Of a DNA stretch of 64,000 nt, positions 1 to 42,932 are shown piece after piece; positions within the stretch are counted from its first letter, which is position 1; every line of letters begins with the position of its first letter. This stretch comes from Deroplatys truncata. Lineage: Eukaryota > Arthropoda > Insecta > Mantodea > Mantidae. The position numbers were made by a program, and so were the translations under genes. The notes under the pieces were generated by a model. The model was not told where the DNA came from and did no database searches. It saw only the letters and a list, made by a program, of their open reading frames with translations. The DNA lies in the NCBI GenBank assembly GCA_030765065.1, contig CM060982.1, positions 14,071,630-14,135,629 of the forward strand, written 5' to 3'.

Positions 1-2809
1 ATTCTTCTTTGATTTACACATAGTTTATAACCACGTCGTTATTAACTGTTCGTCGTTAAACATCACCGTGCATCCACCAGTGTTTGATTTCATACTGACC
101 AGCGGAAGAATTCTTACGTCCTAACAGTAACGATATGACGCGAATGTTAACCGCAATGTCTGTAGCTGCATAGTTGTTTATTCCGTGGAGTTTTCTGCAG
201 GCCTATAAGCACTGTCCGCAAGGATTTCCCACCTTGCTCACGTCTTGAGTGTAAGACCTGCGTGACTTTGTTTTATTTCTGTTGTACACAGCCTAATTGT
301 CCGATCGTTTGACCCATTCTGCAAGTTAGAGAATTACCAGACAAAAACGTCGATTTCTCACAGTATTTTTATGCATTTGGCTTGCTTGGCGCATAACTAT
401 AGTAACACGACTGTTCTTGTTTATTCATGATTTTAAAATAAATTAGGGATATTATACATATAAGATTTTTAATTACTATAATTTTGAGCATTTTACGTTG
501 TATTTTATTGCAGGTTCCTCTTATGTTACATTGTATTATTATCTGTCTGTATATTTGTTCATGCATATGCAAAGGTATATTTACCTTCTCCCCTTACTTA
601 ATGATGAGTCGATACAATTATTGCACAATAATAAAATGTTATACATACTAACATTTAATGTACACTTTCATTTCTATATTTTGCCTTGGTTACGCCACTC
701 GAGCGGGCTATTTATAATACTCTTGCTTTAGGAATCTTGAAATGCCTATTTCTTTTATTCGTTCCCTTTGTCTGTCGCCATCTTGCGCCTGACTATAAAG
801 ACATATTGCATGTACCAATATATTGTTTTTAGCTAATTATACAGCGGAACTAATGATTTCCAAGTAGTTCTTTCTGTCTATAGTATACACACGCTCTTCA
901 GACGCTGTTGGGTGACTGTACCGCCAATTTCCAAAAAGTGAAATTGGAAGAATAAAAATGAATTTATTTCACAATCATATGTACTACATATCTCCATGAT
1001 ATATATTTATTTTGTTCTGCTATACGCATAGCCCCAGATGAGTACCTCATGGAAATTTTTACGGAAGTGGCTTTAGTTTATCGTGTTGACGACTTGATGC
1101 GCTTATCGCAGAATCTTTTAGCTGAGAAATGCCATATCTCTGTTTTCCGTTAATTCTCATTTTACCTGGAGCTTGTCAAGAATTTTATTACGTGCATGAC
1201 AGCCAAATTTTATTTTTCAACCCTCATCTCGAAGCGTGGCGCGAGGCCCCTCGAGTTAGACTGGTTGAGATTAAGGTAAAACCGTGAAGATAATTTTACC
1301 GCCGACTTAATTTTGTAGTTGGGCTTACGGATTCGCCGGAAGGTTCCGTCGCCATTTTAATTTTTTTGAGCCCTTATATAATTATTGCGGGTTCATTGGT
1401 AGATAATGGTAGATAGCGGATACCTAATTTTGCTATGCTCTAGGGTATTATAATTATCCTTATTTTTCTTTTTCCAAACAATGAACCAAAATTTGTGAAA
1501 TGGATGATGCCACCCCTTTCTTCTTAACTTGTATATTGTACCAAATATCTACTAGCTCTGCTGAGCATCCTTGTTTGTTATTTGCTTGATCTATAATTTG
1601 AGAGCGATTGCATCTTTGTTATATTGATGTATGATCTAACTGTACATGATCAGCTGTTTTCTTATCTATTAACGTCCTTATAAGTACAGATTGTAAACTT
1701 GGGAGCTGCCAAGTGTTCTTTTTAGGTGATGTTTTGTTTACATGATTATTTATTACGGATTTCGCAGGCCATCTTTATTTTTTTTACTAGTGTAATTCTA
1801 CCCACCCTTACCCACTCTATATCCAATTGCACATTAAAGGTTAACTTTGAGGTACACCCGTTCGCAATGTAGCTATGCGCGCAATATGAGCTATGATTCT
1901 GATAAGGTGTTTACCTTTGGGTTATTACCATCTACATAAAGTGCTTTACCGCCATTTTATGGTCGGCAGGGAATGGTAGGAACTCACTTTTTTTATTTCG
2001 CTTTTCTCCCTACCCGTACCTTTTTAGAATCCATATGTTTCCCTTCGTACCCCAACAACTATTTGCGTTCGGTACAAGACGGACGAAACCTAAACCTCTA
2101 ATTGATATTTTACTTATTTTCTTTTCTTTAAACACTTAATGTCACATTTACCTACCAAGATGCCTTACAGATGCAATAATTCGTGTAGAAAAGTCACTTA
2201 TTTAGTCTTTTCGAAATTCTACCTATATAATAGTTTACATTATTTAGATTTTCTTAGCATATATATTGCTTTTATGAGTTTCTGTCTATATTTAAACACA
2301 ATTAAACTGCCGGATATAGTTCTGCGATGACTACATATTTATATGTTTTTTTTGTCTTACTGTAATACGTTTACTTATTTTTCGTGCTAATTCACTGTTC
2401 CTATTCGTGTTTCCCCTTACATACTTTTTCTTGTGAATGATAGTATAAGGTTGCATCTGATTGCTTGTTTGGTCCCTAAGTTTCACTAATTCTTGATTTC
2501 CGGTTCTCTAAACTTTGTTTGAGTACAGCCTTGGTTATTTAGGTTACTTTTTGGAGATAATGATTCGTAATTGAATATTATACATGTCTACGGCATGTCA
2601 GGAACTTCTGGTTTAACGACTTTCCACTGGATATATCGCGAGGTTATCCGGTTAGTAGAGTTCGTGTTGTTTTAATGGTGTTGATTTTGCATTATCATCG
2701 TTGATATAGTTTTTTAAGCGACTATGGGAGTCGCCGTTGGTTTCTTTTGTTTACAGGTACGCCGCGAGGCCCTGGAAGCAAGGAATCTATAAAGAGCTTT
2801 GGATATTGC
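1..2809. other. AT-rich non-coding stretch, no gene recognised
   Basis: Only short open frames (under 80 codons) occur, none with a recognisable domain. I saw no terminal repeats, tRNA-like boxes or repeat family shared with the rest of the window. It could be intergenic DNA, intron, or transposon sequence too decayed to recognise. Confidence 0.5.
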
Positions 2810-2950
2810 CGTCCCTGTCATCCAATTCGTATAAACGCACTAACCTAGGCGTCGTAACCTAATTTCGGGCTAAATTTGGATATCACAGTCATCCCGTACT
2901 TATAAACACACTAACCTAGGTGTCGTAACCTAACCTCGGTATCCTGTCGT
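2810..2950. repeat. Tandem duplication, period about 70 bp
   Basis: Two adjacent diverged copies share the core ACTAACCTAGG, then a G/T-variable position, then GTCGTAACCTAA, at about 2839 and 2910. The TAACCTAA motif resembles the CCTAA-bearing unit of the minisatellite at 37258-37910 but the flanks differ, so common origin is not shown. Confidence 0.75.
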
Positions 2951-3921
2951 TTTACTACGTGTTTTTCACTCAAATGTTGGCAGCTTTTCATTTCTGAAGT
3001 GCATCAATATCGAAAATAGGAAATTTTTTGGACAATTATATTGCATTATCAACATTTAGCAGCCATCTGCAGCAAGAGTTTTAAATTTGTGGTACATTAT
3101 ACCCGCCCAAAATGTATAAACATTCAAGGAATACAATCTATGAATTGGATGCGTCTTTGTTTCTATGTTTTCACAATACACTCCTGCACCAACGACAGGG
3201 AAACACGCTTACGAATTTATAAAGTAATGGCAATTTAGTTTAGTTTAAATTCTTGCTGAAAGTTTCAGAAACTTCACAAAACGTAGAAAACAATGGTATA
3301 TATTACAAAAACAACTAAGTTGAAGTTTGAAGTGCTGCTTACGTTATATATATACATAGATAATAAACTAGGTGTTTACTTCAAGAGTCAAATTGTTGAA
3401 GATACATTTTCAACTTAGCTTAATTTTATGTGCTTCTCTGTTTTATATACCTATATTAAAAAGAATTCATTGTAAACGTTTATGTTTATGACTTTGGTTT
3501 ACTGTTGTTTAATAAACATAGATAAAATTATTAATACTATTACTATTATTATACACATTCAAGAACTACACTTTCAAAGCGTAGGTCAAACCGAAAAACC
3601 TCGTATTAGCAGATACGGACTTCTTTGTAAAAAGCTAATGATAAACAACAGACTACAAAACCGCCAGCATACTAGGCCCACATCAGAGACAGGGAACAAA
3701 AAGCAACAGATGTTGATCCAGAATGTTACCTAACCCCAATTACTATGAACACACAAGAGTGGTAAAAGCCAAATTTCGAGTTGCGACATGTCTTCACGAA
3801 AACCGCGTCCTACGGGTTCCATCATAGAATCTGTGAGCAAAGTGGATACCACCCGGCATCGGAGCAGTGTACCTGCATCCCCTGTGGACGTGGTTGTCGA
3901 CAGTACCACACATTTGCCTGT
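2951..3921. other. Non-coding stretch, nothing recognised
   Basis: AT-rich sequence with short frames only. The longest plus-strand frame near 3788-4189 runs into the antisense of the SINE that follows and is not a gene. Confidence 0.5.
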
Positions 3922-5867: not shown

Positions 5868-6835
5868 ATCTATTGTGTTACACTCACATGACTTTCTCTA
5901 ATCTTGTACAAACTATTTTTACAAACGCGTATTCTCCATATGCCTCATATTAATAGATCGAGATGTTAATCTTGTTGCTAGTTTTCTTGTAGATGCAAGG
6001 GGAATTGGTAAGCTTTATGCGATAGTCAAATATTTTAAGAGCTGGTTGCTATGTGGAGTATTCCATTCTTTTTGCAATACCAGGACAAAAAAAATAAATA
6101 ACGAATTCTCATTTGAGGAAAAAGTATAAGTATTGGAAAATTTAAGGGAATAACAAGCAATATCACGAAAATGGTTCACTCAACAAAAAATGTATATGAC
6201 ATAAATTGTGTATTTTAACGCGATCTACATTTTTTGCGCAGTAAAATTTTGTCTATCTCATATGGTTTACCAGCAATGCAAAAGTCGTTCACAATGAAGA
6301 ATACTTTTGGAGACATTCCTAGAAAATTCAAGATATACATTTTATTTGTCATGAAAGTATTTTAAATATATGATATTTTAATCAAAATAATTTGAGCCAT
6401 TTTTGAGAAAATTAAAATTTTCGAAAAATGTTCGATGTACAGTGTATTCTGGTGTGGCGAATTTTCTTGAAAACCTTCTTGTCGCATCTCTGGAATATAC
6501 TGAACCTAAATACCAAGTTTGGTGTTTATCCAACAGTTCGTTTCTGAGTTATGCTGTTCATAGCCAGACAGACACACACACGGACATGTTTCCAAAAATG
6601 CTTTATATGCATTCAGTGCACCTCAAAACATGTGTTTCCTGTGAAGTCTCGATATCGAATTTTTGGGTGGAATGCAATGCTCCCCCTACTTACTATACGT
6701 AGTAAGAAGTAATCAAAAATGCTTTAAATGCATTCAGTGCACCTCAAAATATGTATTTCCTGTGAAATCTCCATATCGAATTTTTGGGTGGAATGCAATA
6801 CTTCCCCTGCTTACTATACGTAGTAGAAAAAGTAA
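5868..6835 (+). repeat. Dispersed repeat R1, copy 1, with duplicated 3' tail
   Basis: About 970 bp that aligns along most of its length with 35563-36365, and in part with 10375-10590 (reverse) and 52555-52650. It starts near TGTGTTACACTCACATG and ends in a ...CTTACTATACGTAGTAG tail. The last part is present twice in tandem (from 6594 and from 6715, period about 121 bp). ACTTTCTCT near the start is roughly the inverse of AGAAAGT near the end, so it may be a non-autonomous DNA element, but the class is not established. Confidence 0.8.
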
Positions 6836-9990: not shown

Positions 9991-10140
9991 AATATATGGA
10001 ATAGATTGGCTGAAGGCTTCGGGCGATTTAGAGATATAGTTCTTTCCTATTGCAATACCATTAGAAATTCTACTTTTTTCTCCGGTTCGTGTCTAGTTTT
10101 TCGCTCCAACGGGGTTCGCAACTTTGCACCAGTTTTCTCG

Positions 10141-10240
10141 ACTAGCGCTTGCAGAAAGCCAACCGAAGTTGCCCGACGAAGTTCGAGCGAATGCCGAAAA
10201 TAAACGAAAGGGAACGATCTTCCAGTTCAAGGGGGAAGGT
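10141..10240 (+). repeat. Left 100-bp terminal inverted repeat
   Basis: Starts ACTAGCGCTTGCAGAAAGCC and is identical over its whole length to the reverse complement of 14931-15030. It is much richer in CG than its surroundings. Homology stops abruptly at base 100. Confidence 0.95.
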
Positions 10241-10374
10241 AGTCCATTCCGGCACATTTTGCTCCCATTGGCTGTGGTCAAATACGTAACGTGGAACGTT
10301 GGCGCGCGCATTTCGACTGGCAATTGAAAGTGAATACATAAAACCATGCGTTTCAAAGCAGGAATTTGTACATA

Positions 10375-10590
10375 CATAGTACAAATCGGTTTAAGTTCAG
10401 TACCTTCCAAAGATGTGACACAAAGATTTTCAAGAAAATTCCCCACCCAAAATAACCCTTTACACAGAAGAATTCTCGATTTTGTTTTCTGAAAAATGAC
10501 TCAAACGATTTTGATTAAAATGCCATTGTATTCAAGATATTTACATGAAAAATAAAATGTTTATTTTTAATTTTCTGGGAACAGCTTGTG
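10375..10590 (-). repeat. R1 fragment, reverse orientation
   Basis: The central part of R1 (around TGAACCTAAATACC, the polypurine GAGAAAATT zone and the TTTTAATCAAAAT zone) in reverse, clearly diverged. It lies inside the 100-bp-TIR element. Confidence 0.65.
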
Positions 10591-11718
10591 AAGTCCTCTT
10601 CATTCGGAAGGAATTCTGTATACTCTTGTGTAACTGGTAAATTTAAGCAACAGAGGAAAATGGGCTACACAAAAAATGTCAATGGGATAGATGGATCTGT
10701 TGCATCCCAGTTTTATATGTTATAATGTTTTATGTATATGCAAACTCCACCATCTTCTAAATGTTTTCTTATACAGGGTGAAAGATATTGCTTGAAATGT
10801 AATAAAATGGCTAATAGACACAGGCACAAGGAACATAAAACACTGTGTTTCATTTTTGTAGGCTTAATGACAAAAATTGTATTGGACATATTTGCACTAC
10901 TCATTATATAGAATCCATGATTAACGTACGGTTCAAGCAGTACCTTCCACCCTGTATACTGTCCTCCCAAATAATACCCATGCAGTAATAATGAGAATTT
11001 CTCGTTTCAAGTGATGTCTTTCTCAAACATATCTTCAAGGTAATAGAAATTACATGGGAAATTGAAATTTAAGCATAACAAAGTATAAAGTTATAATTAA
11101 AGCTTATTCAAAGGGAATTAATCATCAAAATAGTATCAACCTCATGTAAGCAGTTTATGTAGGGCAGATTGCATGTGATGATGATTAACACTTATTGTTG
11201 TCCTACTGTAATGCGTGTCGAGAAGTTTACTGTTGAAATGGTGATGGTTTACAAATTTTTCTCTCTTAGATAAGACATGATGGGGAGGTGAACATCCCCC
11301 CCCCAACGGCTGTTCTTGGCATTGGGTATATTCCTACTTACTCTGCATACTTCATAATTGTATGATGTGTTCAATTTCCCTTGAGCATTGCTCACAGTGG
11401 AACCAAATGAACAAACACAAACAAACATCACTGTATGGGCTCAATTTGCTTTTTTCCCATATGACCTGTCAATAAATTGAAGGTTCCCATGTGCTATAGG
11501 ACCTCCACTGTGTTATATCAAATGTTATATATAGAACCTTTCCCAGGAAAAGGAATCAAAGTGTATTTTCTATTCAATAACTGTAAGTTTTATTAACTAG
11601 TACTGGCTTTGTGTATGCATAAGTGACTTAAGTGCAATTACCTATAAGATCATTCCAATAGATTGTAATAACAGACATTCAAGAGGTTAGAATTTAATGA
11701 ACATTTTAATTGGGTAGG
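10591..11718. other. Interior of the 100-bp-TIR element, nothing recognised
   Basis: AT-rich, short frames only, no domain seen. It may be captured or ancestral internal sequence of the element. Confidence 0.4.
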
Positions 11719-11965
11719 CCATTCAAATGTATATTAATGTAGGCACATGTTCCTTAAAATACCATACAAATGTGTTATACAGTATTATTAAATATGAATG
11801 TGAATGCAATGTCTCTAAATAATAACAATGTCTCTTTGTGTTTAACCATTCAAATGTATATTAATGTAGGCACATGTTCCTTAAAATACCATACAAATGT
11901 ATTATACAGTATTATTAAATATGAATGTGAATGCAATGACTCTAAACAATGACTCTTTGTGTTTA
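11719..11965. repeat. Tandem duplication, period about 127 bp
   Basis: Two near-identical consecutive copies, starting CCATTCAAATGTATATTAATG at 11719 and again at 11846, with small differences (for example GTGTTATAC against GTATTATAC). Confidence 0.9.
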
Positions 11966-12126
11966 ACCATATCACACCCACTCTTCATAATTGTCAATCA
12001 CTTTAACATGTCGTTTAGTGTGCCAGTATTAATTGTTTTTTCATGTTGACTGCAGAAAGAATGTAACAGCACATGCTGATTTATAAATTTGGGGGCTGGA
12101 TGAGACACTCGTTCATTAGTATTGCT

Positions 12127-13620
12127 CTCTGTCCGGCTCTTCTTTAGATTACGTCCCGCAACTTTTTCCAGTATAAAAATCAAAGTCCAAAGGTACTTAC
12201 TGCGCATGCGCTGAGATGAGTAGCAGACAATCTTCATTGCTACCAACATTGCTCCTGCAATCACACTAGTTTTTGTTGCCTAGTATCTAATCTAATCCAA
12301 AGTTTTGTCCTGATCTAAAACTAATATCTAATCCAAAGTTTCATTTACAGTTTGGAGCTGATGCACTAAACAACAGGATAAACTTTTCGAATATCTTCGA
12401 TCAGTTCTTGGAAGGGATCTGCTAATCTGTTTTTTACGTCTTGCCGCCACAGGTATTCTGACAAATGGACATCCATTTGCGCGTTTCTGATGCCGCCCCT
12501 GGATAGGCGATGCCGGAGAGATCGCCATCGCGACTCGATATTGTTCGTGTGGACATTCGTTACGGGGTCCACAAAATGCTCGCTGTGGTTCACCGTCAGG
12601 TGCGCTGCAAAACCCCCAGCCATTAATCCATTATATCCGCCCCAACAGTCGGTGTGAATTGTGCTGGCGAATTCCACGTGTTCCTCAATTAATGCGAAGA
12701 GGGTGGCACCATCTCTTCTATTGTTGGGACACACTGTCATTCGCACTTCATTGGTGACCACGTCAATCATCCCTAGGATTCAGTTTCCTTCCACGATACG
12801 GCCGCGATGGTATTTTCTTCTCCCGATCTTGCATTCGTCGATTTGTACGACGTGGCCGGCACCGCCTATTTTACCCCTGTTGGCGTACTTGTCCATTGAG
12901 GAGATACAGACCTCTCGGCAGTAACTAAACCAATCGGCTATTGTTGCGTGGCTTATGTTACTATCACCGAGAGAACTTTGAATTACAGTTTGTTCGTAAG
13001 ATAACTTACTTGCGAAACTGTAAGTAAGAAGCAGCACTTGGGCAGGTGGCAGTCTTGAATTTTCGAACCACGTGCCTTTTGCCACGGACTCTGAAAACTG
13101 CTCTGCATGTCCTCTCCTACATGAAAATATTTGAAATTTTCGACCACGTTTTGTTACGGGATGTAGGACGGCATCACATTCCCGACATAACATTCGGGTT
13201 CTAAGCAAGCTTTCGTCGTATAGAAACTGCATACACTCTTGCTCATTGTTGCACAAAGGTGCTAGGTCAATAAAATTTATAAACCTTGTCATTGCTCGTA
13301 CGAAACTTCCACCTAGTAAGTTTATATACTGACTGCCAAGAGCCAGGTAGGATACCCATTTTCAGATTTAACAGTAAAACTGCTTCCTTTCTAACAATAG
13401 TACATCTGTTGCGCACATGTGAAGTTTCAAACATCTGCGGAACAGATGCTTGGGGTGATTGTGCAGAAGTTGGTAGGAGATGCATTCACAACTAACGATG
13501 TTTGCAGCGCTGCAATTACACGGAAACTTCGGGAGGTTTCGGCAGCTCTCGTACGCCTATCCCATGTCGGACTTTGCCAGAATTCTTGCGGGACGTAATC
13601 TAAAGAATATCCCTCTGTCC
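12127..13620 (-). mobile_element. Merlin DNA transposon, nearly intact
   Basis: The element proper is 12135-13612 (1,478 bp). Its ends form 27-bp inverted repeats starting GG; bases 12141-12161 (TCTTTAGATTACGTCCCGCA and the next A) have an exact inverse at 13586-13606. It is flanked on both sides by the octamer CTCTGTCC (12127-12134 and 13613-13620), matching the 8-9-bp target duplication of the Merlin/IS1016 group. One transposase gene on the minus strand fills most of it. It was inserted into the 100-bp-TIR element. Confidence 0.95.
12366..13292 (-). pseudogene. Merlin transposase with a single premature stop
   Basis: Merlin/IS1595-type (ISXO2-like) DDE transposase of about 308 codons; the ATG at 13292 is the first in frame and gives the usual family length. 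The N-terminal part has two cysteine pairs (CRECD and FSCRRGH regions), a zinc-binding module. The catalytic core shows VQIDECKIGRRKYHRG (first D), HTDCWGGY (second D) and NNIESRWRSLR (third acidic residue). The frame is whole apart from one in-frame TGA at 12780-12782, where the family normally has W in an EG-x-W motif, consistent with a single TGG to TGA change. This copy would therefore make only the first 170 residues, without most of the catalytic core. Confidence 0.93.
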
Positions 13621-14590
13621 TCCATAGTATTTTTAATTTTAATGTCCCTTTTAACTTCACAGGTTTACAGAGATTGGAGACTGGTGGGAGGGGGGATGAA
13701 GATGGTGCAATTGATGGAATTATGGTGGGGAAAACCAGAGAACATTCATTCTAAGTGCCATTTTATCTACCACAAAATCCCACCTCTGATCCCTAGGATT
13801 GAATCCAGGCTTTTTTGTGAGAGGCCATAGTGCTGCCCAATTAGAAGTGTGAATATGAGACAACATTTAAAACAGAGATAGCATTACTCAATACTATCAA
13901 GTAATGAAACCAAGAAGTTGTTTTACAAGCCAGCTCCCACTATGACTTCACAAATGAGGTGTATGTAAATAAAGTAGATACTTAAAAAAGAATAACTATT
14001 TCAGCAGATATTTTGCCATGCAATACATATTACACATTTATATAATTTAAGTTGGGTGTTTTGTCATAAATATGGTAGCTGACATTTCGATATGTAGAAA
14101 TCATTCAGCAATAATGTGGTAATACACAAGTTTTATGTAACTATTTGTGCTTCCAAGGCCAGCGCTTAACCGAGTTACCCAGATTGACAAAAAAATTCCC
14201 AAGGATATACAGTACATATGGAGAATTTTCTGTTTATGAAATGCTTTAAGTTATTTTGCAATGAAAAGAGCATTATGTCCTAATTTATTTATTTGGTATA
14301 ACAGCAGGAAATAGTGTTTGAGCACAACACTAATACACATCCAAAATCAAACTATGGATCCCAAAATATTATCATTACATCACATTCAAAATTGAAATAG
14401 GTATCAGACATACCCTTTGAGCACGAGTTCTCTTGTTCGTTTTACGATATTAGTGTGCAATCCATAAAAGTAAACTTTTCGAAATACAGTCCCTAATTTG
14501 AACACATTTCAACACTAAATGGCACAAACACACATTTTAACACCTTAACATACTAAGTTATAGTTTATATTTAAGGTTAGCTTGTTTTCG

Positions 14591-14591
<1 letters not shown>
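13621..14591. other. Interior of the 100-bp-TIR element, right of Merlin
   Basis: No domain or terminal structure recognised. AT-rich with short frames only. Confidence 0.4.

Positions 14592-14655
<64 letters not shown>
14592..14655. repeat. AT dinucleotide microsatellite
   Basis: About 32 uninterrupted TA units. Likely length-variable. Confidence 0.98.
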
Positions 14656-14656
<1 letters not shown>

Positions 14657-14930
14657 CAATTCTTCATTAAAACCAACTAAACTTTCGATTCATAAGCTGT
14701 CTTCTACCTTACTAGGTTTTCAGTCATGTTCCAGTTTTAAACATCGAATGCGCGTTATTTGGTACTCAATATTAAATAAGGTATCACTATAAACTCCTAC
14801 ATTTACACAATTGCTCGTTGATACGAAAATTCTGGTTTATTTTTATATTTTCGGTATTGCTATTTTATCAGCTGACTTGCATCTTAGTTTAGTTTCAAGC
14901 CTCAGCAATCAGCATGGCAGAGGTCGCGAC

Positions 14931-15030
14931 ACCTTCCCCCTTGAACTGGAAGATCGTTCCCTTTCGTTTATTTTCGGCATTCGCTCGAACTTCGTCGGGC
15001 AACTTCGGTTGGCTTTCTGCAAGCGCTAGT
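14931..15030 (-). repeat. Right 100-bp terminal inverted repeat
   Basis: Exact reverse complement of 10141-10240, followed directly by the duplicated nonamer GTTTTCTCG. Confidence 0.95.
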
Positions 15031-15039
15031 GTTTTCTCG

Positions 15040-20039: not shown

Positions 20040-20247
20040 AGCTTGAGATAGATGTGTTCTGTTGTTGTTAGGCACACGCTTGGGAAGCCAACTTGAAGTA
20101 GATTTATTGTTTTTAAAGTTTGTACCACACTTTGAGCGTTAATTTGAAGAAGATTGTTTGTTACATAATATGCTACTACGTATGAGAAACCGATTTGAAT
20201 ATGTATTTTTGTTGTTACGCTCCAACTTTTAAAATATTATATTAACT

Positions 20248-21179
20248 TGTTATGGTATTACTTACAAATGTTTGTGTATTTATGTTTACTTCACGCGTGG
20301 AAGCCATCTTGTGACGTCATTCATTTGTTCGGTTTGTAGCTCCATCTAGTGTTAGCAATTTGTGGTAGTATTAGTGTTTGAAAGAATTATAAGTTTTGTT
20401 TACTGTCCTCTGGCTAGCTATTATTTCTCAGTCGAACATGTCTCTTGAATCAGAGTGTGTAAACGGAAAGGAATCTTTTATCCAAATATAACACTGATGA
20501 AGAAATTTGTTTTACATATTTATTGTCAAACACGTTAACTATCACATGTATACATTGATCTTAACACTCGCCAAACTGAAACTGTTATAATAACTTCTTA
20601 CTGATCACTTTTAATCCACGTACTTCAATTTTTTTTGTATAATTAACTTTACCATACTTTAGATCTTTCATAATTCTGCTGCGCGTAACTTGTGAATCTA
20701 TATCCGATGTATGCCATACTAATACTTTCGACGAACTGACTGAGTGAAGACGACGTGTAATGTATTGAGATTTTCAATGAACTGACCGCGATCTACCTCT
20801 GACTTGGCTTATTTATACTCCTGCATCCAGATACGCCTAAAGATTATAACTGAATTACTATTGGCTAATAAAACGCGCCAACATTAGCGTCTATTTTAAT
20901 ATCCAATGAAAATTATGAATACATATGCTCTAGGGAAACATTCCAGAAGTTTCTACCGAAAAACGCGCCAACATTACGTAACTTCATTTCCAATAATGAT
21001 AAACAGCTCTGCATTATTGCACGCTATTATTGACAGTTTCAGTAAGGTCGTATAAACTTACTTATCAACAATAATTACAATCAATAAACATCTGAAATCA
21101 ATGTCACATATGTCAATGCATATTCATATTACAATCATTATTTACATTTAAGTAATTTGTGATACAAATTACTGCATCA
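20248..21179 (-). repeat. A1 3' LTR
   Basis: 932 bp, TGATGCAG...CCATAACA on the element strand. It contains two TTGGCGCGTTT motifs (minus strand of 20874-20881 and 20964-20971), an inverted CCAAT box, a TATAAATA box (20810-20817) and an AATAAA near 20520. Compared with 27916-28848 it has roughly a dozen substitutions and several small indels. Confidence 0.95.
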
Positions 21180-21919
21180 TATGCCCCACTAGAAACATAA
21201 TTATAAATATTTACAACTTGTTTGGAAATTTTATAATTGGGTTTTTAGTCTCCTAAATCTCGGAACACACGCTATCACTTTCACTTAACACTTCACACGC
21301 ATTTAACACATGACATATGTTTTTTTTTTTTTTTTTTTTTATCTCGCCACTACTTACTGGCTCTGGTTTAATGTGTTTAGACATTAATCTGACATTACAA
21401 ATTTTTTTTTTTTTATAGCAAATACTGTACCCTGAAGTATTTAATTACTGTTACAAAAAATGGTTTACTTTCTTATATTGTTAACAAAAATTTATCAGTT
21501 CAAGAATTTTTTTGTAATTATTAAACATATTTACCAAAAATATTCACCCTCTACACAAATATATTTACATCTCTTAAATCTAGGCACTGTTTCACATGTT
21601 CTGTTTGCTACATAAGTATTTGTTTTTAATTATTTTTACCCATTTTTGTTATTTTGTACTTTATTTTAACCATACTCTTGGAATTGCATTTACGTATCTT
21701 TTCTTTAATATCATATTAAGTTTCAATCTTTACATTCTTAATTTTCAAATACTGTTATAGTTACAAAAAAAAAATGTTATTTTCCTTTTTTTTTTTTTTT
21801 TTAAAAATTTAATTATGTCCAAAATTTTATTTCTCCTTTCACATGACGTACATATTTATTTAACCCTCTTACAATCCAATACATTTCTCTGCAAGTCATC
21901 TTTAACTATCCAGCATTTA
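21180..21919 (-). other. A1 3' untranslated region and polypurine tract
   Basis: About 740 bp between the integrase stop and the 3' LTR, very AT-rich with several T/A homopolymers (for example 21321-21341). It ends with the polypurine tract AGTGGGGCATA at the LTR edge. No envelope-like frame is visible. Confidence 0.8.
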
Positions 21920-23480
21920 CTATTTATCATCATTGGCTTCTGTTTCACCTTTATCTTCATTGTTGTATGGTTTCAGCATCTCAATATGGAACTTTCCAAT
22001 GCTTTTTCGAGTTGTTGGATTACATAACTCATATGTATTTGTTCCATATACTTCAACAACTTCATATGGTCCATGGTATTTGAGAAACATTCGCCAATAA
22101 AGTTTATTTGCTTTATCCGACAATTTCTTGGTTTTAACCAAAACTAAATCTCCTATTTTGATCCTCCATTCCTTTCTCTTCTTTTCTTCATGTTTAATTT
22201 TTCTTTTTATGGCCTTTTTCTTCATCCTCTCGAATGCTTTTCGGAACATCTCTTCTTCTGTTTGTGGTATCGAATGAGCATCTGGAATGGCTTCTGGAAT
22301 TTTCTTACACATTGTTTTGATCTTCTTTCCTAACTTAAGTTCACATGGTTTGTATCCGGTCACATTGTTTACAGTTTCATTTAGTAGATTCTGAACGAAA
22401 TTCACGTATCCATACCATTGGGTTTGTTTTTGATGACACAGCACCCTCAAATAATTTGAAATTTCCTTAATTTCCCTCTCTACTGGATTGGAGTTCGGTC
22501 TGTATCTTGACGAAAAATATTGTTTAATGCCATTTTCTTTCAGTCCATCCATAAATTTTTTTCCTGTGAAGTACGAAGCATTATCGCTCAATACAGATTG
22601 GATAGGTCCTTCTATCACATATGACTTGAGTAGTCTATTCAAACATGCTAAACCTGTAGGTTTTCTCAAAGGGTAAATTCTTACATATTTGCTGAATATA
22701 TCATAACAGACAAATATATATTTATTTCCAAATTGACTTGGAGGCATCGGACCATGAATATCAATACTAATTACACATCTCGGCTTATCCCTTATAACCG
22801 AATTAGTTTCAAATGCATATGCTGCATTTATTTGCTTTGCCTTCTGACACAGGTTGCAGCACGATATAAATTTCCGAACTTTCTGACGCAATTTGGATAT
22901 GTATAAATTCTCTAAAATCATAGAAGTTGTCCGGTCCGTCCCTGAGTGTGCTAACCCTTCGTGAAAATTCTTAATTAGTTCCTTTTCCATGCTTTTCGGA
23001 ACCATTACCTTCCAACTAGGCATTTCTTTTCCATGCTTCTTGTATAATGTCCCATCTCGAATTGCTACAATTTCTTTCTTTGCCTCTTCAATTAGTGGTG
23101 CCTTTTCTTTAAGTTCCAATAATTTTGCATCCTCATTTTGAATTTCCCCTATATTTTTCAATTTTCTAATCATTTCTTTGCTTAAAGGAATTTCAATTGT
23201 CAATATTTTGACTTCATTTCGAGGCCTTTCAATATTTTCGGGAATTTGTGGGTTGTAGTTCAATCTTGATAGCAAATCACTGAAGGTATTATTTTTGCCA
23301 GGAATGTGTATAATCTCAATATCGAATGCAGATATTGCATGAATGTATCTAGCAAGTTTTCCACTACATAATCTACACCGTTGTATGAAAGTTAAGCTGA
23401 TGTGGTCTGAATATACTTTCACCTTTTGCTGATAAATATAGGTTTTAAAACGAATTAATGAGAAATATAGTGCTCCAATT
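21920..23480 (-). pseudogene. pol: A1 RNase H end and integrase
   Basis: The open frame runs from about 23422 to a stop at 21920 (500 codons), with RNase H similarity upstream of it to about 23480. The start holds the RNase H end (VYSDHISLTFI). The integrase zinc finger follows (HEGLAH and CCNLC, an H-H-C-C arrangement). The catalytic D, D and E lie in SIDIHGP, LSDNASYF and NPVEREIKEI. A lysine-rich stretch and a GPY/F-type C-terminal module (KYHGPYEVVEVYGTNTYEL) end it. It would insert the cDNA into the host chromosome. It lies one frame back (-1) from the reverse transcriptase frame, so the polyprotein is broken at about 23490. Confidence 0.93.
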
Positions 23481-25143
23481 TCTGAGTTACTGAAGAATTC
23501 CGTTCAATATTTGTAAGTCCTCTAGAAGCTGTACTAATGACGTGAAAGTCATTATTGATGTCTCGCTGTCCTAAAATTCCGGCGTATCCTTGCATTGATG
23601 CGTTGACATAAATCTCATATTCCAAATCTTCTCTGGGCCTCTCGAGCAATATGGACTTAGCAAAGAGTTCTTTTACTCTCTCAAAACATTTCTGATGATC
23701 CTCTGTCCATTTCCACTTATTGTTCTTTCGGAGTAGCTGCCGCAGTGGTTCTATTTCAGCCGAATACCTTGGTACGAACTTACTCTGAAAGTTCAATACC
23801 CCTAAGAGACGTCTAATTTGTTTTACGTTCCTTGGTGGTGGAATTTTCATTATAGCTTCTATTCTCTTCTGATCAGGTCTTATACCTCGTTCATCCACTA
23901 CATAACCCAGAAAATTTATTTCCTTGACACAAAATTTTGATTTTTGTATGTTTACTGTCATACCATGTTGTTGCAGTTTGTTTAACACATAATGGACATT
24001 ATTCATGTGTTCTTCAAATGTTTGACTAATGATTAGGAAGTCGTCAATATACTTTATTAAGAAGTCATCTGCAGAATTTCCAAAGATACTGTGAATGGCT
24101 CTCAAAAATCCACTTCCTGAGTTTTTTAAACCAAAAGGATTTACACAAAAACGATACTGGATCCCCGAGTATTGAAATGAAGTGTAATCACGCACTTGTG
24201 GATCTAATTCCACTTGCCAATATGAAGCAGTGAGGTCAATGGATGTTAGAAATCTCCCTCTTGAAAGTTTCGTAATTAGTTGTTCAATTCCCTCACTTTG
24301 AAAATGATCTGGCTTCATATACTTGTTGACATATCTACCGTCTAAAGTTAATCTCAAACTACCATCTCGTTTAATACTCCAGCAGATTGAATTTATGTAC
24401 TGAGAATTGCTTTGCTCAATAATCCCATTTTCCAACATGTTATTTATTAGTTGTCTAGCTTTGTCCCGAAGACTTATAGGTAAATTGTCATACTTGTGCC
24501 TATATGGTGGTACGTCTTCTACTTGAAATGTATGCTGATATACATTACATCTGCCTGGGATATTACTAAATACTGAACTATTGTTCATCAAAACATCATG
24601 AAGGACTTGTTTTTGCATTATCGTAATATTATAAGCTTCTTCACACTTGTGTATTATTTCCTCATTTCTCTGCTCTTTCCAGCTGTTGTCTGTCTCGCTC
24701 ACATGGTCGTCTTTTGTTTGGATTGTAAATTCCTCTACTTTCTCTGGCATTTCTATTAGCTGTTGAAAATATGGCGTGGTATTCCCTTCATATTCTGTGA
24801 CTACCTGCTTTATCTGACTATTTCTATCAGTTTCTGTTATTTGCACAAAAAACTCTTGATCACAAAGATTTTTCTCATCCTTTGTCATCTCGATTACAGA
24901 AACTTTCTCTTTTATAAATGGTACCCTTATTTCTCTATCGTCTTTTGTCATTCTTAACTCTTCATGTTTAAAATCTATACTTGCTTCATATTCATGTAGG
25001 AAGTCACAGCCTATAATTATGTCACAAATCAGATGGTTTACAATTAGAAACATAACCTCAAAATTCTCTCCGCCGATAAGTATGTTGAGTAGAGCTTTTG
25101 TGTTTTTATGACCTGTGTCGTTCTTCCGATTGCAACACGACAA
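23455..25143 (-). pseudogene. pol: A1 end of protease, reverse transcriptase and RNase H start
   Basis: An open frame of 562 codons. The start holds the protease end (DIIIGCDFLHEYEA). The reverse transcriptase follows with LTLDGRYVNKYM, SIDLTASYWQVELD, VNPFGLKNSG and the catalytic YIDDFLIIS. The RNase H start is at YVNASMQGYAGILG. It ends early at a frameshift inside the RNase H domain (about 23490). It would copy element RNA to cDNA. The catalytic YIDD is intact although the gene is broken on both sides. Confidence 0.95.
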
Positions 25144-25423
25144 ACTAAATTACTAGTGGGAAGAGCCATAATTTTGTTACCTTCATTAATCAAATTTATG
25201 TAAAATTTCTGTGAACAAATTGAAGCTGACGAACCAGAATCTATAGTTGCAATGATCTCTTTCTTCGCAATTTCCATCCTAACATGAGGTGACTTGAAAT
25301 TTTCTCCCTTATCTTGTGTTGCTGCAATCTTATTACAGGGTGTGTGTGTAGGCATATTATTTGTATTGGTAATGGATACTGAATTATTAAAGACGTCCTG
25401 AGAACCTACTACACAGGAGTCTA
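25044..25423 (-). pseudogene. pol: A1 aspartic protease
   Basis: Retropepsin-like domain with the active-site motif ATIDSGSSASIC. The frame is open from just inside the gag end, in the -1 frame relative to gag, as expected if pol is made by ribosomal frameshifting; the overlap holds GGAAAAC, not a textbook slippery heptamer. A second -1 shift at about 25110 separates it from the rest of the protease and looks like damage rather than programme, because it falls in the middle of the domain. Confidence 0.88.
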
Positions 25424-27526
25424 TTAACAGTTTTCCTGGTTATTTCCATGCTCACGTACGGGACTGCCATTCCTAACAGGCGCTAAATCTATCTCATTGT
25501 CGCTACCATTGTTTTGAGTTCCCCTTCCTCGAGTTCGAAATCCTCGATTTCTGACATTATGTCCCCTGGGCACATAATTTTCTTGCCGTTCCTCAGATCT
25601 TTCCCGGTTATTGTTTTCCCTCCAGTGAGTGAAATTTCCCCTTTGTCTAATGTACCGCCTTCCATAATTTTGCCCTCTTTCAGGCAATCTTTCTGTCCTG
25701 ACATAATTTATTTGTTCCTGTCGACCTGGTCTCCCATCTATCCTCGATCTTTCAAACTGTGGAACGTATGATTGATACCGTTGTCTGGTATTATTTTCAT
25801 GACGCCTGTCTTGTCCTCTACTTTGCTGATAACTACCTTGGTAATTTCTTCTATCTCGCACATCTAAAAATCTATGTTCCCACTCCTGAGATATATCTTC
25901 TTCCTGTTGTTCCAAAGCTGTCATTAATTCTGTCATCTCATAGATGCTACGTGGTTTTGCAATTAATAAGTAATTTTGTATCCTTAAAGGATAATGCCTT
26001 GCGAGCAAACTCACAAAATCTTCCTTACTGATTGGAGGTGACAAGTTCCTAACCTGACTTGCATGTTTCAGTAAGTAATCAGTCATTGATATTCCCTCTC
26101 GTGGATTAAATTGACCATGACTAAGCATTGCTCGAATTCTGTGCTGTACCGTAACATTCCAAAATCTGTTCATGAATAACCTCTTAAAGGATTCATATGA
26201 AATTTCACCCCCTGATACCATTTGTAACCAATCTAAAGTTTTCTGGTCCAAACATCTTTTGACAACTATCATTTTCAATGCTTCAGGTATCTTTTTAATT
26301 TGAAAATACTCTGATAATTCTGCAATGAACTGTACTGGACTGGAGTTTTCATTAAATTTTGGAGGTGGAAAATCACTTAAGATATGATTGTAATTTTGCA
26401 AATTCCCTACTCCCATATTTAAATTCTCTAGTGTTACTTGTGCACTCTGAGTTTCAGCATTAGCTATAGATGAAGCTGCCGCATCACTCACATTATTTGT
26501 CATACCTGAGGAACTACCTCTATCATTATTTTGTACATCTGATACATTCACATCACATATATTTGCCCTTGAATTCAATTCTAACCTATTTACAGTACCT
26601 TGCAGATGTTCTATTGTCTGTTCCAATTTTTTATTATTCTCATTTTGAACAGCTTGGTGTTTGTTAATTTCAGAAGTTAGCTTTTGATTCAAATCTTCAG
26701 ACAATTTATTTCTCTGTGTTTCTGACTCCTTCTGAATTTCAGATATTTCCCCTCTGAAATTAACTTGCACCTGAATTAAATCTGCATTTGTAGCCTCCAT
26801 AATCTCTCTTAACTCATCTGAAATGCTACTCATTCGGCTACCTAATTCTGTACATTTTACATCAACATGTTCTATTTTATTATTAACCTCACTTTTTTGG
26901 TTTGATATTTCCCTGCTCATTTCTGACATTTTCTTTGAAACTTCACCTATCTCATTTGCTATCATTTCCTGATTTTCATTTCTCATTCTCATCATACTAC
27001 TATCTAGCTCCATGAATTTCTTTTCAATTTCTTCCCTGTTTTGTTCTAAGCTCTTACCAATATCTTCCCTTAATTCTCTCTTATTCTGATCTAGTTTTTG
27101 TTGTAAACTTCTATCAATATCTTCTCTTAATTCCCTATTATTCTTTTGCATATCTTCCCTTAATTTCTCATTACTCTGAGTTAATTTTTCTAATTTCTCA
27201 TTATTCTTTTGCATATCTTCCCTGTTTTGATCTATTTTCTTTTCTAATTTCTCATTATTCTTACTTAGGTGTGTAATACTCTTATTTAATGTTTCACCAA
27301 AATTTCTCAACATTTCCATCATACCAGCATCAAAATTAACATTTCCTGCTATTCTATTCTGACTTTCTGCACTAACATTTCCTCCATCAAATACTACATT
27401 GTTTAAGCTATTTTCTGTATCCTGTATTGAATTACAGCTAACTGTTACATTATCTCCCTCCATAATTGTTTCTTCAATATTATTAGTAGCCATTGTTTTC
27501 TTTATCCTACCACTCCTCAAGTACAT
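25424..27526 (-). CDS. gag: A1 Gag, intact
   Basis: 700 codons, starting MYLRSGRIKK, the N-terminal pattern also seen in B. Residues about 80-320 are a long coiled coil with repeated N-E-K-L/R-E-D blocks. A retrotransposon-gag capsid-like domain follows at about 390-520 (FIAELSEYFQIKKIPEALK, ESFKRLFMNRFW). The C-terminus (about 545-700) is rich in R, G, Q and N (RGNFTHWRENNNRER, RTRGRGTQ) and has no CCHC zinc knuckle, so RNA binding probably relies on the arginine-rich tail. The start is the first ATG of the frame, about 390 bp downstream of the 5' LTR. Confidence 0.93.
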   Translation of the reverse strand: MYLRSGRIKKTMATNNIEETIMEGDNVTVSCNSIQDTENSLNNVVFDGGNVSAESQNRIAGNVNFDAGMMEMLRNFGETLNKSITHLSKNNEKLEKKIDQNREDMQKNNEKLEKLTQSNEKLREDMQKNNRELREDIDRSLQQKLDQNKRELREDIGKSLEQNREEIEKKFMELDSSMMRMRNENQEMIANEIGEVSKKMSEMSREISNQKSEVNNKIEHVDVKCTELGSRMSSISDELREIMEATNADLIQVQVNFRGEISEIQKESETQRNKLSEDLNQKLTSEINKHQAVQNENNKKLEQTIEHLQGTVNRLELNSRANICDVNVSDVQNNDRGSSSGMTNNVSDAAASSIANAETQSAQVTLENLNMGVGNLQNYNHILSDFPPPKFNENSSPVQFIAELSEYFQIKKIPEALKMIVVKRCLDQKTLDWLQMVSGGEISYESFKRLFMNRFWNVTVQHRIRAMLSHGQFNPREGISMTDYLLKHASQVRNLSPPISKEDFVSLLARHYPLRIQNYLLIAKPRSIYEMTELMTALEQQEEDISQEWEHRFLDVRDRRNYQGSYQQSRGQDRRHENNTRQRYQSYVPQFERSRIDGRPGRQEQINYVRTERLPERGQNYGRRYIRQRGNFTHWRENNNRERSEERQENYVPRGHNVRNRGFRTRGRGTQNNGSDNEIDLAPVRNGSPVREHGNNQENC

Positions 27527-27897
27527 TTGAAGGTTACAATTTTGTTTTCTAACAAAAAAATTACAATACTCTGACCTTTGTGATGCTGTCTGTTGCTGTT
27601 ACTTTGATGTCCAGCTTCCTGCCCCTCTCTCCTAGGTTATATGTCGCTTCTGCATTGTGTTATGATGAATCTGCGTTGTTTTGTTGTCCTGTAGTTTGAA
27701 TTTCCCTGTTGCCTTGTAATCTCGGAATTACGATGTCCAATCATACGCGTAGTCTGTCGTCCCTTTTGTTGTTTCTGGAATCTGCGTCTTGTAGTTCAGT
27801 TCACATCTCCATTCGCCCCTTCCTGGTCATCCCACTTCTTCCTGGTTAATTCTGCCCCTTCCTGGTTATTCTGATCCTTTCCTGGTCACTATGCTCC

Positions 27898-27915
27898 ACG
27901 TTCTGGGTGCCAATT
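27898..27915 (-). promoter_or_regulatory. A1 primer-binding site
   Basis: On the element strand TGGCACCCAGAACGTGG follows the 5' LTR by three bases. It matches the tRNA-Lys(CUU) 3' complement (TGGCGCCCAACGTGGGGC) apart from one substitution and a two-base insertion. Confidence 0.75.
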
Positions 27916-28848
27916 TGTTATGGTATTACTTACAAATGTTTGTGTATTTATGTTTACTTCACACGTGGAAGCCATCTTGTGACGTCATTCATTTGTTCGG
28001 TTTGTAGCTCCATCTAGTGTTAGCAATTTGTCGTAGTATTAGTGTTTGAAAGAATTATAAGTTTTGTTTACTGTCCTCCGGCTAGCTATTATTTCTCAGT
28101 CGAACATGTCTCTTGAATCAGAGTGTGTAAACGGAAAGGAATCTTTTATCCAAATATAACACTGATGAAGAAATTTGTTTTACATATTTATTGTCAAACA
28201 CGTTAACTATCACATTTATACATTGATCTTAACACTCGCCAAACTGAAACTGTTATAATAACTTCTTACTGATCACTTTTAATCCACGTACTTTAATTTT
28301 TTTTGTATAATTAACTTTACCATACTTTAGATCTTTCATAATTCTGCTGCGCGTAACTTGTGAATCTATATCCGATGTATGCCATACTAATACTTTCGAT
28401 GAACTGACTGACGACGACGTGTAATGTATTAAGATTTTCGATGAACTGACCGCGATCTACCTCTGACTTGGCTTATTTATACTCCTGCATCCAGATACGC
28501 CTAAAGATTATAACTGAATTACTATTGGCTAATAAAACGCGCCAACATTAGCGTCTATTTTAATATCGAATGAAAATTATGAATACATATGCTCTAGGGA
28601 AACATTCCAGAAGTTTCTACCGAAAAACGCGCCAACATTACGTAACTTCCTCGTTTCCAATAACAGCTCACCCCCCTCTCTGCATTATTGCACGCTATTA
28701 TTGACAGTTTCAGTAAGGTTGTATAAACTTACTTATCAACAATAATTACAATCAATAAACATCTGAAATCAATGTCACATAAAAATGCATATTCATATTA
28801 CAATCATTATTTACATTTAAGTAATTTGTGATACAAATTACTGCATCA
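27916..28848 (-). repeat. A1 5' LTR
   Basis: 933 bp, same termini as 20248-21179. Promoter motifs (TATAAATA, CCAAT, TTGGCGCG) are present here as well. Confidence 0.95.
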
Positions 28849-34688: not shown

Positions 34689-36497
34689 TGTGGGAGGTTT
34701 TTGGGTTACGTAATTGTTAATTTAGGTGATGTTTTTGGTTGTGTAATTATAGATTCACGTTGAGGAACGCCACTTTGAGAATGTTATTGAACCTCGTATT
34801 TGTTGCCGCCAAACTTTATAGTGAAGATGATGCTTGTTTTTACGTAGTATTATTAAAGTTATTTGCCTTGGCTGCTTTCAGTAGCACTATAGAAACACGA
34901 GTTCTTGTAGGGTTGTGATAAGACTCAAATTATAAGAGCCACACAATTTACTTTTTAATTTTTACTTCTTTTATTTCACTTTATATTTGCACATTTTATA
35001 AACACAACACTTTATAAAAGAAAACTGTGAGCACTTAATACATTTTTGGCGGAGAACACAAATTTTATCATTTATACTTTACAACATTTTTACCCACGAC
35101 TTTCACGTCTGCTCTGTGTAATATCTTGCCCAAGACTCTTACGTCTGCTGTCATTTTTACCCACGACTTTCACGTCTGCTCTATATAATATCTTGCCCGA
35201 GACTCTTACGTCTGCTGTTTACTACATCTTGCCCGTGACTGACTAGATTCAACGGTAAAAACCTTTAGAGTCGGTAATGCCGTTCTCTTATTGGCTAAAT
35301 TCTAGTCCAATAGAATTTAAGTATTCAAACTAAAATCTTTTCTTTACTTTTGATTGGCTAATTCCGAACTGTAAGCGGAATTACATTATTACCGATCTTT
35401 TTCATAACCAGTACTTTTAAAACTCCAAACACATTATTGTCACCAAAATTACATTATTGCCTCATTATTAACATCCTAAAACATAGTATTCTCACAGTTT
35501 TTGCACTATTAGAGTATATAAACATTTACTTAGTATTAATAAATGCGTTTACAATAAAAAAAATCTGATGTGTTACACTCACATGACTTTCTCTGCTCTT
35601 GTACAAACTACTTTTACAAACGCTTATTCTCCATATGCTTCATGTTAATCGAGATGTCAATATTATTGCTAATTTTCTTGTAGATGCAAGGGGAATATGG
35701 TAGGTTTTAAGCGATAGTCAAATATTTAAGCGCTGGTTGCTATGTGGCGCATTCCATTCTCTTTGCATGTCCAGGACATAAAAAAATGAGTAACGAATTT
35801 GAGAAAAAGTATAAGTATTGGAAAATTTAAGGGAATAACAAGCAATATCTCGAAAACGGTTCACTCAACAAAACAAATGTATATGACATAAATTGTGTAT
35901 TGTAACGCGAGTTTACCAGTTATGCAAAAGTCGTTCAGAATGAAGAACACTTTTGGAGACATTCCCAGAAAATTCGAGATATACATTTCATTTGTCATGA
36001 AAATACCTTAAACATGTGATATTTTAATCAAAATCGTTAGAGCCATTTTTGAGAAAATTAAAATTTTCGAAAAATGTTCCATGTAAAGGGTAGTCTGGGG
36101 TGGGGGGATTTTCTTGAAAACCTTCGTGTCGCATCTCTGGAAGATACTGAACCTAAATACCAAGTTTGGTGTTTATCCGACTGTTCGTTTCTGAGTTATG
36201 CTGTTCACAGACACACACACAGACACACACACGGACATGTTTCCAAAAATGCTTTTTTTGGATTCAGGGAGTCTCAAAACATGTATTTCCGGTGAAATCT
36301 CGGTATCGAATTTTTGGGTCGAATGCAATACTTCCCCTACTTACTATATGTAGTAGAGAAAGTAATAAGTATTTACAATGACTTTACATACAATTTATAT
36401 AATAATTATATACATATTGTTTTTCAAGGTGGGCTGTTATTAAATTTAATTAATAAAAATACAATTAGTGTCATGTAGGCATTAAAATACTGCCTCA
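34689..36497 (-). repeat. B 3' LTR, interrupted by R1
   Basis: Aligns with 43805-44690, but about 800 bp of R1 (35563-36365) sit in an AATAA-rich site in the middle. An internal segment with ACCCACGACTTTCACGTCTG and CTTACGTCTGCTG is tandemly repeated at 35094 and 35158 here but single in the 5' LTR. Two inverted CCAAT boxes occur at about 35290 and 35352. Confidence 0.9.
35563..36365 (+). repeat. R1, copy 2, inserted in the B 3' LTR
   Basis: About 800 bp aligning with 5868-6835; the 3' tail is single here. The uninterrupted B LTR at 44560 shows the empty site, so this proves R1 is mobile or was mobilised. The precise duplication is masked by an A-rich target. Confidence 0.85.
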
Positions 36498-37254
36498 AAT
36501 TGCCCCCTTTTAGAAATATTTAAAATTTACTCTTTTTGTTGATTCTTTAAATTTTCAAATATTTTCTAAAAGTCCCCGGAAAGAAAGAAACATAACTTTT
36601 ATTTTGCACTTCCTATCTTTCACTGTCACTTACTTACTTTTTCTTCAACACTCGTGTATAGCTGAACACTTCCTATTCACATGCGTAGCACTTTTCAAGG
36701 TTAATGACCTGAGCTAAGTTTGCTCATTCACTATCACTTTCACTAGTAAACACTTTATATGCTTAACAATTTTACATACAATTATAAATGTTAACATTTG
36801 TTACCCTTTGTATACAATTTGTTTCCTAAATTTTAATTTAGGGCTAATATTGTCTTATAGTGTGCCCGTAGAAAATGCTTATAAAATCAAAAGGAAAGCG
36901 AATAAATTACCTTAAGAGTGAGCTTAGAACACGATGTGGTCTTGTCTATAGCTGGTGCCCACCTGCCCGCCCGTTTAAGGTATTTTAGTTATATAGGAAA
37001 ATCGCGTCAGGAAGTAAACAAACGTAGCCATTTTGCAAAAAATTACATGCAAATTGGGTACTGCCAACGTAAATAAAAATGTAAAATCAGCTAAAAATGC
37101 GATGCGCCGTTGTTACCGCTATTTGTTGTTGTTGTTCTGCGATTTTGTTGAAACGCAACGCATGCAAATTAACAGTGCGTATTTAATATAAAGCAAAATG
37201 GTTTGCACGGGATGTGAGAATACTGTCTTTAGCATTCTAACTCAACACGTGCTA
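36498..37254 (-). other. B internal region near the 3' LTR
   Basis: Polypurine tract at the LTR edge, then AT-rich sequence without a recognisable gene. The place where pol would be expected is empty. Confidence 0.6.
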
Positions 37255-37257
37255 TGC

Positions 37258-37910: not shown

Positions 37911-38343
37911 AGCGTAACCTTCTGTTAATTCATAAAGCACAGGTTGTCTAAGATCCCTGCGCTACACTCTGTGGTCGTTTCCGCATTCGCAGCATTAATT
38001 TTCATTTTGGCGGCATTAATTTGTTATATGTTGGCAGCATAAACATATGACATACGTGACATGTGTTGAGCTAGTGCATGGCATAGTGTGACATCTGTTG
38101 GACAATATAACACATCATATTCATCGCCGTGGGGCACACTGTAAGATGATATTATCGTAATTTATAATATAGATGTAATTGCTACTAAGATTTTCTACTA
38201 ACAATGGAATTTTAATGCTTCTGTTTCTAAAAATTTTCCTTTTGTTATTTATTACCTGCTCTATTTAGTAAAACAAATTATTATTTACATATTACTTTAC
38301 AATTTTAAATTACATTGATTTTCCTTTTTATGTTCCAAATACA
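37911..38343 (-). other. B internal spacer
   Basis: No frame or motif recognised between the minisatellite and the basic-repeat coding region. Confidence 0.5.
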
Positions 38344-42928: not shown

Positions 42929-42932
42929 TATT

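Follow-up and report, generated by a model that had tools for sequence, protein, structure and literature searches.

Mutator-like elements (MULEs) vary widely in the length of their terminal inverted repeats, and the reason for this variation is not clear (PMC6446971). Among the systems described to date, Rehavkus elements have 9-bp duplications, ends of 26 to 400 bp, a minisatellite, and a PHD finger (PMC6446971). In one copy of the Drosophila element Galileo, 441 bp of internal sequence has been duplicated and inverted, which lengthened the ends (PMC3573991), and gap filling with template switching has been described for animal Pack-TIRs (PMC8277862). Our literature search, with most subscription papers outside its reach, returned no report of a MULE in which one end replaces the other. 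Here we analyze an element at positions 10141–15030 of a 64,000-nucleotide stretch of DNA from the mantis Deroplatys truncata (GCA_030765065.1, contig CM060982.1; C8:14071630-14135629), hereafter the window, for which we searched the 4.29-Gb genome of the same species. We put the probability at roughly nine in ten that this element is a non-autonomous MULE deletion derivative that belongs to a young family and in which one end was copied over the other.

The two terminal arms of the window copy are exact reverse complements at 100 of 100 positions, and an identical 9-bp sequence, GTTTTCTCG, flanks them on both sides, just as the original prediction had described from the letters alone. This duplication (9/9) falls within the 8–11 bp expected of MULE target sites. 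Similarity between the arms ends at position 100, as the next 20 bases match at only 6 positions in an ungapped comparison. Exact inverted repeats reached at most 15–20 bases when the window was shuffled 10 times by mononucleotide, and two 9-mers drawn at random from it would agree with a probability of 2.9e-5; a chance origin of the paired arms and duplication is excluded. The arms are also richer in guanine and cytosine (GC) than their surroundings, as had been claimed, with a GC fraction of 0.51 against 0.35 for the window and a CpG observed/expected ratio of 1.41 against 0.70 for the element interior and 0.68 for the window. As a single strand, the arm folds no better than shuffles do (z 0.11), arm-derived peptides gave no match in the protein collection, and a 20-mer of the arm is absent from viral and prokaryote contigs, a set that may leave out the window's own genome records.

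An arm search of the genome, in which the best 40 of 1305 first-look candidates were scored, gave 41 listed matches, 40 of them at 100% identity and one at 81%, in agreement with the expectation that the ends would be conserved among copies. We fetched 20 places of 10 kb each from the 40 best exact matches, a choice that biases the identity of the selected arm (partner arms are unselected) and under-samples older or broken copies. Diverged arms do exist: with the arm of an older copy, L012, as query, 41 matches were listed at 100% to 76% (best 40 of 1184). Both arms are present in 18 of the 20 places, and solitary arms without inversion or duplication, the pattern that had been named in advance as speaking against a transposon, were not seen in this sample. 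L012 is without a family right arm, only the left 1.3 kb of L020 lies in the fetched range, and the right-arm match of L027 spans 31 bases only. An exact 9-bp duplication flanks 13 of the 18 two-armed copies; duplications of 8 bp flank L018 and L024, and L017 and L023 have none. The remaining copy, L016, matches at 8 of 9 positions and has the same flanks as L015, so that the pair reads as a duplicated insertion. Five further short stretches yielded both arms in L032 (duplication 8/9) and L033 (no duplication), one arm within the stretch fetched in L030 and L031, and a head-to-head chimera in L029.

The family consensus, built from 16 copies (the window copy minus its nested Merlin element and 15 copies shorter than 3.7 kb), is 3246 bp long and non-coding, its longest frame of 120 aa running through an arm. 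Interior identity to the consensus is 98.8–99.2% in 15 of the 16 copies and 95.3% in L019. The family, at ~99% uniformity, thus appears young, and the decayed interior that had been proposed gives way to that of a young deletion derivative: with Merlin set aside, the window interior is 99.1% identical to the consensus. A transposase was looked for and not found in the longer copies L014, L018, and L028; by eye, the frames of the first two resemble proteins of long interspersed nuclear elements, and L028 holds other repeats. The family inserts in GC-rich targets, with 56% GC in 14 duplications and a flank GC (17 copies) of 48% within 50 bp, dropping to 39% within 900 bp. As a separate observation, the duplications of L018 and L010 match the family's own right subterminal sequence, and the L018 flank carries the sequence of another copy, which looks like self-insertion.

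The origin of the perfect ends becomes apparent from ungapped comparisons of left and right ends in seven pairs. Positions 1–29 match at 26–29 of 29 in all seven. Over positions 30–100, the window copy matches at 71 of 71 and the consensus at 70 of 71, whereas five relatives, enzyme-bearing, older, and some young copies among them, match at only 19 (the transposase-bearing C1 element, copy B), 26 (L036), 14 (L037), 20 (L027), and 22 (B122) positions. L027 and B122 combine family-type left ends with related but different right ends. The perfect 100-bp ends are therefore probably the result of a right end overwritten by a left end, and the 100-bp arm is probably not ancestral. Of the two explanations offered earlier for the perfect ends, mobilization by an enzyme in trans and end conversion, the second does appear to be involved, and the first is consistent with the transposase copies described below. 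Exact 9-bp duplications flank the asymmetric copies L027 (CCTTAAGCT), B122 (CTTCTGAAG), and L036, which argues that asymmetric copies moved too.

Genome-wide, right junctions number 259 in the converted form (≤1 mismatch; 2 for the control) and 373 in the unconverted form (≤2 mismatches; 0 for the control), a ratio that is rough because tolerance and length differ. Among the matches listed on C1–C7, 60 exact right junctions are converted and 96 unconverted. These contigs also carry 28 left ends exactly like that of the window, of which 14 have a converted partner, 6 an unconverted one, 1 both types in range, and 7 no exact one. The abundance of both junction forms and the 14 to 6 lead of converted partners would suit the converse history, in which the 100-bp symmetry came first and the asymmetric right ends replaced it later. 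We nevertheless regard that history as improbable, since the transposase-bearing C1 element and L036 and L037, which are ~93–94% identical to the consensus, are all asymmetric, and their right ends resemble one another and that of L027.

A polymorphism at arm position 62 bears on how the left end was copied. Exact left ends carry A in 105 cases and G in 59, and exact converted right ends carry A in 23 and G in 74. The 34 left/right pairs, for which 100 of the 105 left-A places were used, comprise 8 A/A, 22 A/G, 4 G/G, and no G/A; enrichment of equal pairs is not significant among these 34 (Fisher p 0.55). The window copy belongs to the A/A class. This pattern fits an end copy from a G-type left end followed by later change or re-copying, and the marker leaves room for end copying that may have happened more than once. 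The junction itself shares at most one base (GGT/A versus AAT/G, by eye). Overall, we lean toward the view that the long inverted ends arose in one copying step and that both forms then jumped side by side in one genome.

To account for the gene-less interior, we turn to relatives that retain transposase sequence. The genome has at least 150 matches to the MULE domain PF10551 (150 of 735 candidates scored). A related-end pattern, ACAAGYGCYTGCAGANAGC, occurs 639 times (reversed control 0), and paired matches 4.1–4.3 kb apart led to L036 and L037. Both have ~1 kb of additional sequence at consensus 523/538; it consists of a transposase C-terminus and 3' region and aligns in two blocks, at 80–91%, to positions 3440–5003 of L034, a locus on C10. 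The L034 transposase is 758 aa long from its first Met, ends in the same C-terminus as the L036/L037 piece, and is followed by DNA equivalent to consensus 537–1022. A third partly deleted copy, L046, comprises a left end that is 97% identical to consensus 2–536, transposase residues 502–757, and then consensus 538 onward; its fetched stretch stops short of the right end.

The complete arrangement is found on C1, where a transposase copy lies within a 10,877-bp element (including insertions) that reads left arm, consensus 1–536, transposase, consensus 538–3143, right end. Its alignment blocks (1–250, 250–536, the 758-aa frame, 538–1022, 1022–1820, 1821–2692, and 2679–3143; 83–96%) place the gene at the family's deletion point, around consensus 523/538, and consensus 1022–3143 is contained in this element. 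The collinearity of the C1 element on both sides of the gene, together with the partly deleted copies L036, L037, and L046, is the reason we read the window element as a deletion derivative. The original prediction of a Mutator-like DNA transposon without its own transposase is thus borne out, and the search it proposed, for a MULE-bearing copy with the same ends, succeeded with one qualification: the C1 element shares the outer ~29-bp end type and the interior, although its ends are not identical to the window's and the whole 100-bp arm is not present at both.

A protein-level search for the transposase yielded a list of 64 matches, with 59 out of 953 candidates scored, among them four full-length open frames (100, 97, 93, and 92% identity). 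C-terminal pieces with shared starts make up 38 of the 64, beginning among the matches listed at residues 502–503 (7), 561–566 (23), or 584–588 (8). From these shared start points, the gene looks to have been lost through several separate deletions. The L034 and C1 transposases differ at 60 of 755 residues (dN 0.038, dS 0.095). The C10 copy matches the MULE domain PF10551 with an E-value of 9.5e-11, and a SWIM-like CxC..CxH can be read by eye near the C-terminus. Similarity searches found relatives in Gryllus (50%), Nephila, and Apolygus, and a flea protein named mudr-1x. The family's left arm is found in three of the six long-frame copies examined, C1:34885540 and the C10 and C12 copies, lying upstream of the latter two transposases at a distance similar to that on C1.

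Several observations weigh against this reading. The C1 element is the sole transposase copy seen with both ends, its duplication (CGCTCATTG/GGATCATTG) agrees at only 7 of 9 positions, and its transposase is without the residues around the presumed third catalytic position (NMAIE in L034). Among the partly deleted copies, L037 has no duplication. No left arm was found in the 1.6 kb fetched upstream of C1:34765811, C8, and C1:21364178; the second C1 copy has homologous upstream DNA without the arm over that distance, one armless C1 copy is a 642-aa frame, and the C8 copy has only 45% identity in the protein search. In the C10 copy, neither C2H2 (E 0.0012) nor ZSWIM (E 1.6e-4) reaches the Pfam cut-off. 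Between the 40 exact arms and the listed transposase matches, the shortest distance is 2.2 Mb (59 of 953 and 40 of 1305 candidates scored). Finally, the three transposase-bearing left ends carry the inner motif GGAGACGGAACA and the family GCAGAAAGCCAA, so the young family may have been moved by a different copy, one not seen here.

The full-length open frames, at 92–100% identity, could also be host genes, and older repeats lie inside the element interior, as would be seen in a Pack-MULE in which unrelated Mutator-like ends had picked up part of a gene of the host, possibly a domesticated MULE gene. We find this doubtful in the extreme, given that the C1 copy follows the family's order from one end to the other, before the gene as well as after it, that the left arm lies upstream of three transposase copies, and that partly deleted copies exist; the interior piece identified is the 3' region of the element's own transposase. 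Fainter still is the case for a Foldback/Rehavkus (MULE-NOF) element with a transposase of another clade. The 9-bp duplication, the 100-bp inverted ends, and an internal 127-bp repeat of variable number would fit such an element, but that repeat sits mid-element, not beside the right end, and the linked transposase combines a MULE domain with a weak C2H2 match, a scan at E≤0.1 returning MULE, ZSWIM RNaseH-like, and three C2H2 models and no PHD finger. Very recent insertion alone, without end copying, rivals only the last step and is just as hard to sustain, as zero differences in 109 left/right positions (95% upper bound on divergence 2.7%) and the near-consensus interior would agree with it, but it leaves the ~29-bp-only match in five relatives unexplained; recency and end copying are compatible.

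Other MULEs and arrangements were encountered in the course of this work. L035 is a MULE copy with a 428-aa frame, FLYWCH-like by eye, and long diverged inverted repeats. We rejected it as the family's enzyme source, its ends being unrelated; to judge from these sequences, more than one MULE lineage is present in the genome. At L038 and L042 (C1 and C12), another family end stands head-to-head ~217–262 bp upstream of the left arm, either by coincidence or through an insertion preference.

The family, its duplications, the partly deleted copies, the collinear transposase-bearing element, and the asymmetric relatives, all read from sequence comparison, can be joined in one proposed history. A transposase of ~758 aa, with a MULE catalytic domain, a weak C2H2-finger match, and SWIM-like cysteines, would be supplied from elsewhere in the genome; we infer mobilization in trans by this enzyme. 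It would recognize the two ends by their outer ~29 bp, excise the element, and reinsert it through a 9-bp, sometimes 8-bp, staggered cut. The family would have originated through an internal deletion that took out the transposase gene and joined the left region, at the scar at 10664–10677, to what had been the 3' downstream region of the gene. Later, ~100 bp copied from the left end would have replaced the outer ~60 bp of the right end in one lineage, so that an inverted repeat of ~29 bp, with inner flanks that differed, became a perfect one of 100 bp. The likely route, in a direction that we also infer, is a right-end break followed by repair, or template switching, with the left end as source. 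The window copy, which carries the private Merlin, would be a descendant of this converted lineage that inserted at GTTTTCTCG.

Table 1 Features of the MULE copy in the window (positions are those of the window)
Feature	Position	Strand	Remark
Left target-site duplication, 9 bp, GTTTTCTCG	10132..10140	.	
Left arm, 100 bp	10141..10240	+	Outer 29 bp (10141-10169) is the inverted repeat common to the related elements compared
Inner part of left arm, left-end sequence	10170-10240		
Left subterminal region (consensus 101-523)	10241..10663	+	Present in part before the transposase gene of the C1, C10, and C12 copies
Old repeat piece inside left subterminal region	10390-10622		
Putative internal-deletion scar (consensus 524-537)	10664..10677	.	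Partly deleted copies keep the transposase 3' end here
Putative former 3' downstream region of transposase gene (consensus 538-1022)	10678..11161	+	
Hairpin like a miniature inverted-repeat transposable element, within the preceding region	10770-10801 and 10927-10958		Positions are those of its arms
127-bp tandem repeat, ~2 units	11719..11970	+	
Private Merlin insertion including duplications	12127..13620	-	Element 12135-13612 (1,478 bp)
Merlin transposase frame	13292-12366	-	One internal stop
(TA)n tract, 31.5 units	14592..14654	.	Consensus has a short TA run only
Right arm, 100 bp	14931..15030	-	Probable left-end copy replacing the right end of asymmetric relatives; outer 29 bp 15002-15030
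Right target-site duplication, 9 bp, GTTTTCTCG	15031..15039	.	

Within the interior (Table 1), the region that would have lain downstream of the transposase gene is 96% identical to the C1 element and 89–91% to the C10 copy, and the number of 127-bp units differs between family copies. The nested Merlin element is real, as the original prediction had proposed. It encodes an IS1595-type transposase (PF12762, E 3.5e-10), has ends of 27 bases that are 93% alike, and is flanked on both sides by CTCTGTCC, an 8-bp duplication within the 8–9 bp of Merlin elements. It seems to be young, with one stop in its frame and its duplication intact. Merlin is absent from all 18 other family copies compared, and the uninterrupted site is visible as an 8-bp overlap in 16 of them; this private insertion is why the window copy is longer than the ~3.25-kb consensus. 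A six-frame Pfam scan of the whole element (E≤1), the only search made for R1, returned PF12762 only, and the R1 fragment that had been claimed for the interior was not found.

The old repeat module in the left subterminal region recurs at 6276–6510 and 35921–36157, with ~71–82% identity between places, and has several more occurrences in the window and among the fetched loci. Elsewhere in the window, a long terminal repeat (LTR) retrotransposon at 20244–28848 has ~940-bp repeats that are 96% identical and gag/pol-like frames on the minus strand, and a shorter relative at 39072–42930 has ~940-bp terminal repeats that are 99.1% identical with a gag-like frame between them. A tandem array with several repeat registers lies at 37252–37936.

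The element is a clear case of how long inverted ends can arise. Its ~29-bp and 100-bp forms, partly deleted copies, and open transposases occur in one genome, making the origin and effect of long ends directly comparable, and if the one-step end copying is true, the family would serve as a natural experiment on the function of long ends. The counts point in both directions on whether long ends helped, with unconverted junctions at least as common genome-wide and converted ones in the lead among window-type left ends on C1–C7.

The closest systems are the MuDR-1x-like and other arthropod MULE clades, which share the MULE-domain transposase with a zinc finger and the 8–11-bp duplications, and in which long inverted ends are possible too (PMC13359780, PMC6446971). 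Unlike in those clades, the abundant form here is gene-less and the 100-bp ends look secondary; the likeness comes from similarity searches. The Tm1 Mutator/Foldback elements of root-knot nematodes also have 9-bp duplications and non-autonomous copies, and their MULE-domain transposase copy was likewise found through shared ends, although that transposase is of the FLYWCH/Phantom type and the ends are composite and foldback-like (PMC3169594). As in plant MULEs with tandem terminal inverted repeats, end structure is altered in amplified non-autonomous copies; the plant ends, however, are tandemly duplicated, whereas here one end replaces the other (PMC3310237). Galileo, a member of the P superfamily in Drosophila, resembles this family in having its longest ends in non-autonomous copies and in its chimeric copies, and differs in its transposase superfamily, its 7-bp border sequences, and its ends of 18 to 1,250 bp (PMC3573991). 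In place of that range, the mantis family displays one discrete change of the end, from ~29 to 100 bp.

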